This document shows, in pieces, positions 10,540 through 16,028 of a stretch of 64,000 nt of DNA (its first letter is position 1; each line of letters opens with the position of its first letter). Made by a program: the position numbers and the translations under genes. The notes under the pieces were generated by a model, which searched no databases, was not told the DNA's origin, and was given only the letters and a program-made list of their open reading frames with translations. Origin of the DNA: Candidatus Siliceabacter maunaloa. GTDB taxonomy: Bacteria > Actinomycetota > Thermoleophilia > Solirubrobacterales > Solirubrobacteraceae. The stretch is from positions 1-64,000 of the forward strand of contig JANDLV010000009.1 in the NCBI GenBank assembly GCA_024330185.1, read 5' to 3'.

Positions 10540-12039
10540 CTACCCCAGCCTCTTGAGCCTCGGCCAGAGCTGATCCCACGGCTGCGCCGGCCCCGCGCAC
10601 AGCGCGAGCAGGGTGCCGTCCTCCTCGTTGTCGACCCCCTCGGGCGTGTCCACGCGGCCTGCCGGCCGGCACCCGCTGAACCGACGGTCGAGCTGCTCGG
10701 GCGCAAAGCCCACCGCGAGCACCGGGCCGGATCCCGAGGGCGCGGTTGGGGAGCCGGGTGGGCGGCCGGGTGGGCGGCCGGGTGGGCGGGCCCAGTACCA
10801 GTAGCCGTTGTGGCCGCTGTAGGCGCGCGACAGGCCGCGCGCGGGGCCGTAACGGTCGATCGCGCCGGCCTGGCCGTAGTTGAACGCGACGATCACCGGG
10901 TCGGGCGCGCCGGGCGGGAGCCTCTGTGCCGCGCCCGCGACGGTGTCGACGAACTCCGGCCAGCCGATCGTCTCGCCGACGTCCTCGTTGGCCGCCAGCA
11001 CCGGACCCGTGGAGCCGGCGGGGAGGACCGGGAGCGCGATGACGGCCGACACCACGGCGCTGAGGGCGATCGCGAGGCCGAGCGCCCCGCGGCGGACCCC
11101 GGCCCGGCCACGGTGCAGCCACCGCTCGAGCTCGATCGCTCCGGCGGCGATCAGGACCGCGAACATGCCAGCCAGGTAGTAGGGCTTCCCGGCGGTGAGG
11201 AGGAAGGCGACCGCGAGCAGCAACCAGCAGACGGCGAAGGGGCGAAACGGGCGCAGGCTCGGCCGGCGCAGGAGCGCGAGGAGCCCGGCGATCCACACCG
11301 GGGCCAGGACCGGGCTCACCAGCAGTAGCTGAAAGGGCAGGAACGCCCAGCGCGACTCCGAGCTCGTGGAACCGCCCCCGGCGATCGAGCCGGCCACCTC
11401 GAGCTGCGGCCAGCCCTGGCCGGCCTGCCACACCAGCCAGGGCGCCCACAGCCCGACCGCGATCAGCGCTCCCAGCCACAGCCAGCCCGACCGCAGGACC
11501 TGGCGCGGCCCGACGGCCAGCGTCCCGGCGAGCAGCCCGGCGGCGAGGAAGGCGATCAGCGGCTTGTTGAGCAGCGCCAGGCCGAAGACCAGTCCGACGA
11601 CGAGCCACCAGCGCGGGTCGGCGCCGCCCAGCAGCCGTGCGAACAGCAGGCAGACCAGGGTCCACGCCAGCAGGTCGAAGGTCGTGGTGCTGAGCAGGTG
11701 CCCGGTGACCAGGAGCACCGAGGCGACCGCCGCGATCGCCGCGCCGAGAATCTGCGCTGCGCCGGTGCCGCCGAGCTCGCGAGCCATCATGCCGGTCAAG
11801 AAGACGGTCGCTCCTGTGGCCAGCGCCGCCGGGATCCGCAGCACCGTCAGCGATCCCGGCGCGATGGCGTTCATCAGCGCCGCGATCGCCGGGGTCAGCG
11901 GTCCCTGGTCCGGATAGCCGAAGGCGAGGTTCTCGCCCGCAGCGAGGAAGTAGAGCTCGTCGCGGTGGTACCCGTAGCCGCCGGCGAAGGCGATCAGCGT
12001 CACGACCACGACAGCCGAGATCGCCAGCAGCGGCCCCAT
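10540..12039 (-). CDS. GT39/PMT-type membrane glycosyltransferase
   Basis: About 499 residues with roughly ten to twelve hydrophobic helices. The first periplasmic loop has YHRDELYFLA, where the Asp-Glu pair is the usual catalytic acidic site of ArnT/PMT-type enzymes using polyprenyl-phosphate sugars. The acceptor is unknown. ATG 12039 places the first helix directly after the start; the frame stays open further upstream, but that part is not hydrophobic and runs into miaB. The C-terminal soluble tail contains a Pro-Gly-Arg repeat encoded by 12-bp DNA repeats. It is divergent from miaB across 129 bases that should hold both promoters. Confidence 0.8.
   Translation of the reverse strand: MGPLLAISAVVVVTLIAFAGGYGYHRDELYFLAAGENLAFGYPDQGPLTPAIAALMNAIAPGSLTVLRIPAALATGATVFLTGMMARELGGTGAAQILGAAIAAVASVLLVTGHLLSTTTFDLLAWTLVCLLFARLLGGADPRWWLVVGLVFGLALLNKPLIAFLAAGLLAGTLAVGPRQVLRSGWLWLGALIAVGLWAPWLVWQAGQGWPQLEVAGSIAGGGSTSSESRWAFLPFQLLLVSPVLAPVWIAGLLALLRRPSLRPFRPFAVCWLLLAVAFLLTAGKPYYLAGMFAVLIAAGAIELERWLHRGRAGVRRGALGLAIALSAVVSAVIALPVLPAGSTGPVLAANEDVGETIGWPEFVDTVAGAAQRLPPGAPDPVIVAFNYGQAGAIDRYGPARGLSRAYSGHNGYWYWARPPGRPPGRPPGSPTAPSGSGPVLAVGFAPEQLDRRFSGCRPAGRVDTPEGVDNEEDGTLLALCAGPAQPWDQLWPRLKRLG
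10753..10788. repeat. Three perfect 12-bp tandem repeats
   Basis: GCCGGGTGGGCG occurs three times in a row inside the glycosyltransferase gene. On the coding strand it adds four-residue Pro/Gly/Arg units. Copy number changes would keep the reading frame. Confidence 0.85.
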
Positions 12040-12168
12040 CGCAAGCGGCGCCCGTCCCCGTGCGAGACCGTGGTCCGGGCGGCTGGAAGGGTCTTTGGGC
12101 ACCAGAGGACCATCATCCCGTCCCGACGCCGCCCGTGGGTCTCCCACCACAGCTACCCTGCCGTCACG

Positions 12169-13494
12169 GTGAAGCGCTACCACGTCACCACCTTCGGGTG
12201 CCAGATGAACCAGCACGACTCGGAGCGCATGAAGGGCATGCTCGAGTCGCTGGGCTACGCGGAGGCCGGCGCGCCCGCCGAGGCCGACCTGATCCTGTTC
12301 AACACCTGCTCGATCCGCGAGAAGGCCGACGAGCGCTTCGTCGCCCATCTGGAGCAAGCCAAGGGGCTGAAGCGCGCCGACCCGCAGCGCATCATCGGCG
12401 TGGGCGGCTGCTGGGCTCAGTCGGTCAAGGAGGACGTCTTCCGCCGCTTCCCCTACGTCGACGTGGCCTTTGGCCCCGGGCAGGTGCACAAGCTGGCCGA
12501 GTTCCTGACCTCCGACTCGCTCACCGCCCAGGGCTTCTTCGAGTTCGGGGGCTTCACGGGCCATCTGCCCGCCAAGCGCGCCCGCGACTTGCAGGGCTGG
12601 GTGCAGATCAGCGTGGGCTGCAACATGAACTGCAGCTACTGCATAGTCCCGTCCACCCGCGGGCGCGAGGTCAGTCGCCCGCTGGTCGAGCTGGTGGCCG
12701 AGGTGGAGCGCATGGCCGCCGATGGCGTGCGCGAGGTGACGCTTCTGGGGCAGAACGTCAACGCCTACGGGCGCGACCTACGCCCGCAGCGAACATCCTT
12801 CGCGGAGCTCCTCGGCGCGCTCGACGGCATCTCCGGCCTCGACCGGGTCCGCTACACCAGCCCGCACCCCAAGGACATGCGCGAGGACGTCGTGCTCGCC
12901 CACGTGCAGCTTCCCACGGTCTGCGAGCACGTCCACCTCCCGCTGCAGGCCGGCTCCTCGCGCATCCTCAAGGCCATGCGCCGCACGTACACCCGCGAAC
13001 GCTATCTCGACCGCGTCGCGCTCATCCGCGAGCACGTGCCCGACGCCGCGCTGACCACCGACGTCATCGTCGGCTTCCCGGGGGAGAGCGAGGAGGACTT
13101 CGTCCAGACCCTCGGGGTCTGCGAGGAGGTCGGCTTCGACGGCGCCTTCACCTTCATCTACTCCCCGCGCCGCGGCACCGAGGCGGCGACGTTCACCGAG
13201 GGCCTGGTGCCCCACGAGGTCGCCGTGGAGCGCATGGAGCGCCTCGTCGAGGTCGTCCAGCGCCGCGCCCGCCAGCGCGCGCAGCGCTTCGTCGGCCGCG
13301 AGCTCGAGGTGCTCGTCGAAGGGCCCTCGCGCACCGACCCTGCCCGCCTGCGCGGACGCACCCGCCACAACAAGGTCGTCAACTTCGACGGTGTCGCCGC
13401 ACCCGGCGATCTCGTCGGGGTGACCATCGTCGCGGCGACCAGCCAGACGCTCACCGGAGAGATGTCGCTGGTCGCCGCGGCCGCGGCCCGCTGA
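12169..13494 (+). CDS. miaB: tRNA-2-methylthio-N6-dimethylallyladenosine synthase MiaB
   Basis: MiaB is a radical SAM methylthiotransferase acting on i6A37 of tRNAs, after MiaA (encoded at 21471). The 441-residue product has the UPF0004 domain with three cluster cysteines, C11, C47 and C81. The radical SAM motif CNMNCSYC gives C151, C155 and C158. A TRAM RNA-binding domain closes the protein. The GTG at 12169 begins MKRYHVTTFGC, the family's usual start. The neighbouring decayed propeller gene converges on its 3' end. Confidence 0.95.
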   Translation: MKRYHVTTFGCQMNQHDSERMKGMLESLGYAEAGAPAEADLILFNTCSIREKADERFVAHLEQAKGLKRADPQRIIGVGGCWAQSVKEDVFRRFPYVDVAFGPGQVHKLAEFLTSDSLTAQGFFEFGGFTGHLPAKRARDLQGWVQISVGCNMNCSYCIVPSTRGREVSRPLVELVAEVERMAADGVREVTLLGQNVNAYGRDLRPQRTSFAELLGALDGISGLDRVRYTSPHPKDMREDVVLAHVQLPTVCEHVHLPLQAGSSRILKAMRRTYTRERYLDRVALIREHVPDAALTTDVIVGFPGESEEDFVQTLGVCEEVGFDGAFTFIYSPRRGTEAATFTEGLVPHEVAVERMERLVEVVQRRARQRAQRFVGRELEVLVEGPSRTDPARLRGRTRHNKVVNFDGVAAPGDLVGVTIVAATSQTLTGEMSLVAAAAAR

Positions 13495-13500
13495 GCGGTC

Positions 13501-14533
13501 GTCGACCAGCTCGCCGGCGCCGAACGGCCCGTCGGGGCCCCGGCGGGCGAAGTGGATGCCCAGCGGGGAGCCGTGACCCTCGACGCCCGGCGTCTCGCGC
13601 AGGCACCCGACGGCCACGCCCTTGGGCGATCAGGGCGCCGATGGATCCCGCGGCGTCGAGCTGTTGCGGCGCCCCGAACCGTCCGTCGGCGTCGGCGAGC
13701 CGGCCCTCGGCCAGGGCCTGTGGCGCCTCGAGCGTGCTGGAGCCTGCGGGCAGGACGGCCGCGGCGGTGTCCACGGTGCCGACCGGGCCCTCAGTCACCG
13801 GGTAGCCCCGCCAGGCCAAGACCATCGCCTGCGCGCGCGTGCGCGGCTGAGCGCCGACCGCGATCTCCGTCGGCCCCTGGATCTCGCCCGGCGGCGCGAC
13901 GCGGGACTCGTCCTCGACCTCTCCGCTCCCCGTGTCGACGGCCCGCACGGCCAGGCGGCCTGGCCGGTCAGCCACCGTCTCACGGGCGTAGGCGACGACC
14001 GCGCGACCGCTTGCGTCGACGCCCACGGCGGCGGGCGTCTGGCTCACCACGTCCTCGCGCTGGACGGTCGTCACCGGTCCGAACCCGGCGCCCGCCGGGC
14101 GGACCGCGATCTGGATCTCGTCCGAGCGCCCGGCCACGATGTGGTGCCACGCGGCGATCGCCGCGCCCGACTCGTTGACCGCGAGCACCGGCGCGCCGCG
14201 CAGCGTCCGTGGGGCACCGAGCTCGCGGCCGTCCCCGAACCGCGACAGGTCCGCCTTGCCCAGCCGGTAGCCGAGCTGGACGGTCGGGAAGCCACGGTGG
14301 TCGCCGACGCGCTTGGCGTCGAGGTGCGCGATCCACGTGCGCGCGTAGCGGGAGGAGGCCACCGCGAGCTGCGAGGTGCGCACGCGGACCGGCCGCGTGC
14401 CAGCCCGAGCGTCAGCCGCGCAGGTGACCACCCGGTGGCCGGCGTCGACGAGCGCCCCGATCCGACGCTCCGGCGCAAGCACGCACGGGCGGCCGCCCCC
14501 GCCGACCGGTCCGTCATCCCGGTGTGCGAACAT
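13501..14533 (-). pseudogene. Decayed beta-propeller-like repeat protein gene
   Basis: On the minus strand, about 300 codons encode alternating strands with repeated motifs of the kind AAIAAW, RAVVAYAR and AMVLAWRG, separated by FG-P and G-P-FG loops. This is typical of secreted propeller-like proteins in this lineage. Near 13620 the frame becomes Arg/Pro-rich nonsense. The neighbouring minus frame continues with AVGCLRETPGVEGHG and RGPDGPFGAGELVDD, which repeats the same loop pattern, so an indel is likely. There is no signal peptide, and the 3' end runs into miaB. I interpret it as a truncated, frameshifted relic. Confidence 0.6.
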
Positions 14534-14540
14534 GTGTTCG

Positions 14541-16028
14541 ATGCGCTGGAGCAATCTGGATGTCCGCGAGGCCGAGCAGGCCCCCCTTCCTGGCTACCGC
14601 GAAGCCGTGGTTCGTCATTTCGACGCGCCCGAGGCGCTGGACACCCGCTTCTACGAGGTCCACGCCAAGTCCGCGCTCAACCGTGTGCCCAAGTCCTCCA
14701 AGGTCCCGTTTCGCTGGACGATCAACCCGTATCGGGGCTGCAGCCATGCCTGCGTCTACTGCCAGTCGGGCGACACGCTGGTGCTGATGGGAGACGGTCG
14801 TCAGCGCAAGCTCGCTGAGTTGCGAGTCGGTGACGAGATCGTCGGAACCCAGCTGCTGGACGGCAGGCGGCGCTTCGTGCGAACGCAGGTGCTCGCGCGT
14901 TGGCCCACGATCAAGCCCGCGCATCGGGTGACGCTCGACAGCGGCACGGAGCTGGTGGCAAGCGGCGACCACCGCTTCCTCAGCGAGCGTTGGTGGGAGC
15001 ACGTCAGCGGCGAAAAGGACCCCCGGCGCGGTCCCCACCTCGCGGTCGGGCGGGCGCTGCTGGGACCCGGCACCGACGGGAGCCGGCCGGTGCTGGACGG
15101 TCAGGAGGTCGTGTCGACGCCGGGGCTGCGGGTCGCCTCGATCGAGCCGCTGGGCAGGCCGATGCGCCTCTTCGACATCACGACCGGTACCGGCGACTTC
15201 ATCGCCGATGGGGTCGTGAGCCACAACTGCTTCGCCCGACCGACGCACACGTATCTGGGCTTCGACGCGGGGCGCGACTTCGAGAAGGAGATCGTGGTCA
15301 AGGTCAACGTGCCCGAGGTGCTGCGCGCGGAGCTGCGCCGGCCGTCGTGGGCGCGCGAGCACGTCGCTATGGGGACCAACACCGATCCCTATCAGTGGGT
15401 CGAGGGGCGCTACCGGCTCATGCCCGGGATCTGGGAGGCCCTGCGCGAGGCGCGGACCCCGGCATCGGTGCTGACGAAGTCGCCGCTGCTGCTGCGCGAC
15501 CTGGAGCTGATGCGGGAGCTGGGGGACGTCGCGGACGTCAGCGCCAACCTGTCGGTGCCGACGCTGGACGAGAAGGCCTGGCGGGCCACCGAGCCCCACA
15601 CGCCACATCCACGGGCGCGGCTGGAGGCGGTGGCCGAGCTCAATCGGGCGGGGATCCCCACGGGCGTGCTGGTGGCGCCGCTCATGCCCGGCATCAACGA
15701 CGCGCCAGAGCAGGTCGAGGCGCTGCTGGCCGCCGCCGAGGAGGCCGGCGCGGTGGGGATCGGAGGGATCGCCCTGCACCTGCGCGGCGAGACGCGCGGG
15801 GTGTTCATGGACTGGCTGCGCAGCGCGCGGCCCGACCTCGTGCCGCGCTACGAGCGCCTGTACGCGCGTGGCGCCTACGCCCCGCGCGCAGAGCGGGCGC
15901 ACCTAGCGGCCCTCTTGCGCCGGTCCGGAGCGCCGTCGCCCTCGCGGCTCGACCGCGGCAGCGAGAGAGAGACGCCCACGCCGGTGCCGGCGCGGTGGCC
16001 CGAACCGGTCCAGGAGCGCCTGTTCTGA
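14541..16028 (+). CDS. Rv2578c-family radical SAM protein with in-frame mini-intein
   Basis: The extein matches the SPL-like radical SAM family of Rv2578c and related proteins, of unknown substrate. It has NPYRGCSHACVY...CFARPTHTYL, then GTNTDPYQ, an RYRLMPGIWEAL stretch and LHLRGETRGVFMDW. ATG 14541 begins MRWSNLDV, the family's usual MRW start; an in-frame ATG lies nine bases upstream. A 156-residue intein interrupts the cluster motif between Tyr and the third cysteine. Splicing would give a protein of about 339 residues. The upstream gene is a decayed propeller on the other strand. Confidence 0.9.
   Translation: MRWSNLDVREAEQAPLPGYREAVVRHFDAPEALDTRFYEVHAKSALNRVPKSSKVPFRWTINPYRGCSHACVYCQSGDTLVLMGDGRQRKLAELRVGDEIVGTQLLDGRRRFVRTQVLARWPTIKPAHRVTLDSGTELVASGDHRFLSERWWEHVSGEKDPRRGPHLAVGRALLGPGTDGSRPVLDGQEVVSTPGLRVASIEPLGRPMRLFDITTGTGDFIADGVVSHNCFARPTHTYLGFDAGRDFEKEIVVKVNVPEVLRAELRRPSWAREHVAMGTNTDPYQWVEGRYRLMPGIWEALREARTPASVLTKSPLLLRDLELMRELGDVADVSANLSVPTLDEKAWRATEPHTPHPRARLEAVAELNRAGIPTGVLVAPLMPGINDAPEQVEALLAAAEEAGAVGIGGIALHLRGETRGVFMDWLRSARPDLVPRYERLYARGAYAPRAERAHLAALLRRSGAPSPSRLDRGSERETPTPVPARWPEPVQERLF
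14760..15227 (+). other. Mini-intein inside the radical SAM CX3CX2C motif
   Basis: The intein is 156 residues with no LAGLIDADG segment. Block A is CQSGDTLVLMGDG, with Cys1. Block B is ELVASGDHRFL, where Ser stands in place of the usual TxxH threonine. Block F is LFDITTGTGDFIADG, and the C-terminal residues are VVSHN. The +1 residue is the cysteine that is the third ligand in CSHACVYC. Because the intein itself starts with Cys, the unspliced precursor also reads CSHACVYC across the N-junction. Confidence 0.93.

Follow-up and report, generated by a model that had tools for sequence, protein, structure and literature searches.

The intein carried by the window (the whole 64,000-nucleotide stretch of DNA analysed here) adds a further example to an actinobacterial intein that is common and already catalogued. 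It interrupts the gene of an Rv2578c-like radical SAM protein between the Tyr and the third Cys of the CX3CX2C motif, exactly where the original prediction had placed it, and both junctions, blocks A, B, F and G and the +1 Cys can be read directly (Table 1). Most likely, judging from its sequence, it is an ordinary class 1 mini-intein that splices autonomously and derives from a LAGLIDADG-bearing mobile intein, and the intact-looking cysteine motif of the precursor would be a by-product.

The radical SAM protein with the intein inside it lies in an open frame at 14376-16028. Translation probably starts at ATG 14541 (MRWSNL), the start common to the relatives. Across the junctions the protein reads NPYRG-C(14739)-SHA-C(14751)-V-Y(14757), followed by C1(14760)QSGDTLVLMGDG...GTELVASGDHRFL...RLFDITTGTGDFIADGVVSHN(15225-15227), whose last residue, Asn156, ends at 15227, and then by C+1(15228)FARPTHTYLG. 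With MRW as its start, the precursor contains four cysteines in all, at positions -7, -3, 1 and +1. CSHACVYC stands, as had been claimed, both in the precursor and in the predicted spliced product, where it reads the same. The interval given in the original prediction, 14739-15251, comprises the motif, the intein and eight C-extein residues.

Table 1. Features of the intein-bearing radical SAM gene in the window
Feature	Position	Strand	Remarks
N-extein, Rv2578c-like radical SAM protein	14541..14759	+	ends GCSHACVY; start codon placed by the MRW start of relatives
Cys -7 (N-extein)	14739-14741	+	
Cys -3 (N-extein)	14751-14753	+	
Tyr -1 (N-extein)	14757-14759	+	
Mini-intein, 156 aa, class 1 by motif	14760..15227	+	Cys1; block A CQSGDTLVLMGDG, block B GTELVASGDHRFL, block F RLFDITTGTGDFIADG, block G VVSHN
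+1 Cys, third Cys of the mature enzyme's CX3CX2C	15228..15230	+	Cys here in 23 empty relatives
C-extein, remaining radical SAM protein including the stop codon	15228..16028	+	PF04055, NF038135

All the residues expected of class 1 are kept in the window intein, namely Cys1, His71, Asp139, His155-Asn156 and Cys+1, and so are blocks A, B, F and G. AlphaFold2 gives the intein a Hint fold, and the modelled intein matches solved ones (for example, NpuDnaB, 4o1r, TMt 0.84). In the AlphaFold2 model of the precursor the intein part is confident, with pLDDT block means mostly between 80 and 97, and the C-terminal domain is confident too. Excision is most likely post-translational, performed by the intein itself and without cofactors, as the intact motifs suggest: Cys1 would make the thioester, the +1 Cys would take over the N-extein and Asn156 would cyclise, so that CX3CX2C would be rebuilt with the +1 Cys. 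It is very improbable that the intein no longer splices and has left a dead gene, or one that functions in two separate parts. The homing endonuclease is indeed lost, the segment between blocks B and F being absent from the window intein, and block B has Ser in place of the usual Thr of TxxH (SGDH). However, this Ser is invariant across the family, the catalytic His and Asp, the penultimate His and the Asn are all retained, and the frame is open across 495 codons with the host motifs intact.

A first residue of Cys is frequent in class 1 inteins, whose insertion points lie N-terminal to a Cys, Ser or Thr within conserved active-site motifs. Whenever a Cys1 intein lies immediately ahead of a Cys, the motif upstream of it looks intact in the precursor, and no selection need be invoked. 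Cys1 occurs without exception in the Rv2578c-type copies seen, and Cys -3 is invariant too. The constancy of Cys1 in these copies would be expected if a decoy motif were needed as well as under catalysis. Neither Cys1 nor Cys -3 was accepted as proof of regulation on the ground of invariance, because catalysis calls for the one and the host enzyme for the other.

The Rv2578c-like nature of the host, also part of the original prediction, was borne out. The best NCBIfam matches of the window protein over its full length are NF038136 ("intein-containing Rv2578c family radical SAM protein") and NF038135, the mature CX3CX2C is present, and PF04055 scores above its cut-off. Both curated family cut-offs are missed (for the host alone, 411 against 430 bits in NF038135; 634 against 700 in NF038136), and none of the 61 genomes of the window's order and family passes that of NF038135. 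The window branch is therefore best called Rv2578c-like rather than a filed member. Among solved folds, spore photoproduct lyase comes closest to the host enzyme, as judged from a homologue with an empty site. In Streptomyces ambofaciens the gene is reported to be interrupted by a prophage, with no obvious cost (PMC12924846). Just upstream of the intein-bearing gene, at 11698-13494 of the window, lies a MiaB-like radical SAM gene; a MiaB-like motif at the same locus in many relatives (for example, L004, L008 and L020) marks a conserved neighbourhood.

The claim that no described intein is placed in exactly this way did not hold. In the NF038136 profile, residue 1 of the intein falls at position 76 and the third Cys of the empty host at position 335, so that the curated intein occupies exactly the window's codon. 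The curated family and the window gene share the type of host, the codon before the third Cys and a homologous intein, but the intein of the model is longer (about 259 positions) than the 156-aa mini-intein. Among the papers searched, none dealt with an intein in Rv2578c or in spore photoproduct lyase.

A search of Rv2578c homologues for the same insertion site, which the original prediction had proposed as a check, likewise speaks against novelty. Among readable relatives of the same family and order, the site is occupied in 15 of 38 (the window's own genome included) and empty in the other 23, which run straight through C..[YF]CF[AS]R. A scan of 84,980 genomes left 80 loci, and in every one of them the intein occupies this site with Cys1; they come from Pseudonocardiaceae, Micromonosporaceae, Microbacteriaceae, Geodermatophilaceae, Acidimicrobiales and others. 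A strong match to the intein (E < 1e-30) was obtained in 37 of 397 sampled Actinomycetota genomes (about 9%). An Rv2578c-like host and Cys1 were seen at each of the 33 junctions inspected in this sample, as well as in G312 and in the window; of the last two strong matches, one has a QueE host and the other a DUF5131 host. Judged by these homologues at the same codon in 15 relatives, 80 loci and 33 junctions, the intein at the window site is not a chance find.

The intein measures 156 aa in the window and 210, 307, 341-352 or 448 aa in relatives, and the larger homologues carry a LAGLIDADG_3 domain. The LAGLIDADG inteins found at this codon in actinobacterial Rv2578c-like genes represent the same allele as the window intein, with invariant Cys1 and +1 Cys, but most of them have 260-350 aa and an endonuclease domain or its remnant, which the window copy lacks. 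On the tree of splicing domains, a weak tree, mini and endonuclease-bearing forms are interleaved, with at least 14 changes between the two states, and the identities of intein and host correlate weakly (r = 0.28). The weak correlation and the interleaving are the pattern that a mobile intein with repeated loss of its endonuclease would leave. The ancestor was probably a LAGLIDADG-bearing mobile intein with the third-cysteine codon of Rv2578c-like genes as its standard site. A phage carrier of the intein was sought in viral contigs, and none was found.

Several individual loci deserve mention. Two of the long relatives, L034 (G012; 448 aa) and L033 (G032; 352 aa), have an extra low-complexity stretch rich in Ala, Gly and Pro between block B and the endonuclease remnant. 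In L036, from a one-contig genome (G008), the site is empty, and a +1 frameshift lies in a short AT-rich patch exactly at the intein site (about 440-505; GGCTGCCTTTTATTGCTTTGCTCGG). This frameshift is perhaps a scar, left when homing failed or when an intein was lost, or else an error of sequencing. A Hint domain (CVSNSFTADTPVVMGDGS... ALVHNTH) is also present in the window's own genome (G000) on contig C55, at about 123384-123587 (L002); the protein that contains it is large and has a membrane segment at its N-terminus. This domain was the second hit in a search of that genome and is unrelated to the window intein, of which the search found a sole copy.

Two related inteins of the sampled genomes sit in other host families. 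In G158 (L176, minus strand), a QueE (7-carboxy-7-deazaguanine synthase) gene carries an intein directly before the third Cys, GCDYRCSW|CDSKFAV. This intein begins with Ser and has a penultimate Arg instead of His (GCDYRCSWSVTCNTPIML...LSRN|CDSKFAV). Owing to its Ser1, the G158 precursor lacks the third Cys of the motif, whereas the window precursor shows the motif in full. The QueE intein was found in one of 40 genomes of G158's order. In G267 (L192, minus strand), the PGCDNC motif of a DUF5131 protein is interrupted immediately ahead of its last Cys by a LAGLIDADG intein. Like the window intein, both thus stand directly before the last Cys of a CX3CX2C or CX2C motif, and empty homologues among their kin confirm the codon. 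The profile of the Rv2578c inteins scores 118 bits on the QueE intein and 175 bits on the DUF5131 intein, against at most 47 bits for inteins in other proteins of the sample. Both sit on long branches to which the tree gives no definite place, and we do not claim that they nest inside the Rv2578c clade.

The original prediction had also suggested that the precursor could load a [4Fe-4S] cluster on Cys -7, Cys -3 and Cys1, which would occupy the splicing nucleophile and make splicing hinge on iron or cluster supply. The three cysteines do already have the CX3CX2C spacing. By analogy, metal effects on the splicing of the window intein are possible, as zinc on the initiating nucleophile C118 of M. 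smegmatis DnaBi1 can stop splicing (PMC7360933). However, Cys1 is located in the active site of the intein and not in the radical SAM loop, and the AlphaFold2 precursor model has a confidence of less than 50 in both halves of the cluster loop (residues 67-70 and 231-240). In a model of an empty-site homologue from a viral contig, confidence does not dip in this way around the motif (80, 64 and 73 as block means), although it is a weak and unequal control, since the alignments differ and its N-terminal part rests on two sequences. The models are a weak hint that the precursor has no formed cluster loop. Moreover, the related QueE intein restores no motif, so that restoration is not required to occupy an equivalent Cys; this contrast comes from a single genome on a long branch and bears on the site in general rather than on the Rv2578c-like host. 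Iron gating of splicing is unlikely, a [4Fe-4S] cluster on the precursor finds no support, and the scheme as a whole is very improbable.

A dependence on redox state, also raised in the original prediction, is at least chemically possible by analogy, given that Cys -3 and Cys1 are the pair of a described redox trap. According to reviews (PMC10663303, PMC3922620), a disulfide between Cys -3 and Cys1 blocks splicing in Pyrococcus abyssi MoaA (Callahan et al. 2011) and likewise in an engineered Ssp DnaE. MoaA is itself a described radical SAM host with Cys -3 and Cys1 (PMC3922620, PMC10663303), which is a further point against the novelty of the arrangement. It resembles the window gene in its radical SAM host, N-extein Cys -3 and intein Cys1, and the disulfide is reported to block its splicing. 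In contrast, it is archaeal and belongs to another host family. Its +1 residue is presumably the third motif Cys. In the window, the disulfide would form under oxidising conditions, and the oxygen-sensitive enzyme would mature only in a reducing cell, as reported for MoaA. The window precursor does contain the pair, with no cysteines besides -7, -3, 1 and +1; Cys -3, being the second Cys of the motif, is invariant; and the modelled precursor also fits 3nzm, the solved redox-trap precursor of Ssp DnaE. However, the host enzyme keeps Cys -3 anyway, so that its conservation is no evidence of regulation, and the bond may rarely form in a reducing cytoplasm. We regard such a trap as unlikely, but if any control of splicing exists, a Cys -3/Cys1 disulfide would have the best precedent.

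An ordinary intein whose splicing would be independent of iron is thus the preferred reading. The most interesting by-product of the analysis is that three families, radical SAM or similar to it, have inteins of this kind at their cluster cysteine. It is conceivable, but quite improbable, that an intein lineage is specialised on the third, cluster-ligating cysteine of radical SAM proteins (Rv2578c-like, QueE, DUF5131 and perhaps MoaA) and that its Cys1 copies couple splicing to the redox or Fe-S state. If this were true, an oxygen-sensitive enzyme would mature only once its cluster can be made. Natural variants are plentiful: inteins of 137-448 aa with and without an endonuclease, sites that are occupied or empty, and the QueE intein with its Ser1. 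With these, the radical SAM third-cysteine site lends itself to the question of whether an intein placed at an Fe-S ligand is carried along passively or acts as a switch gated by redox state.
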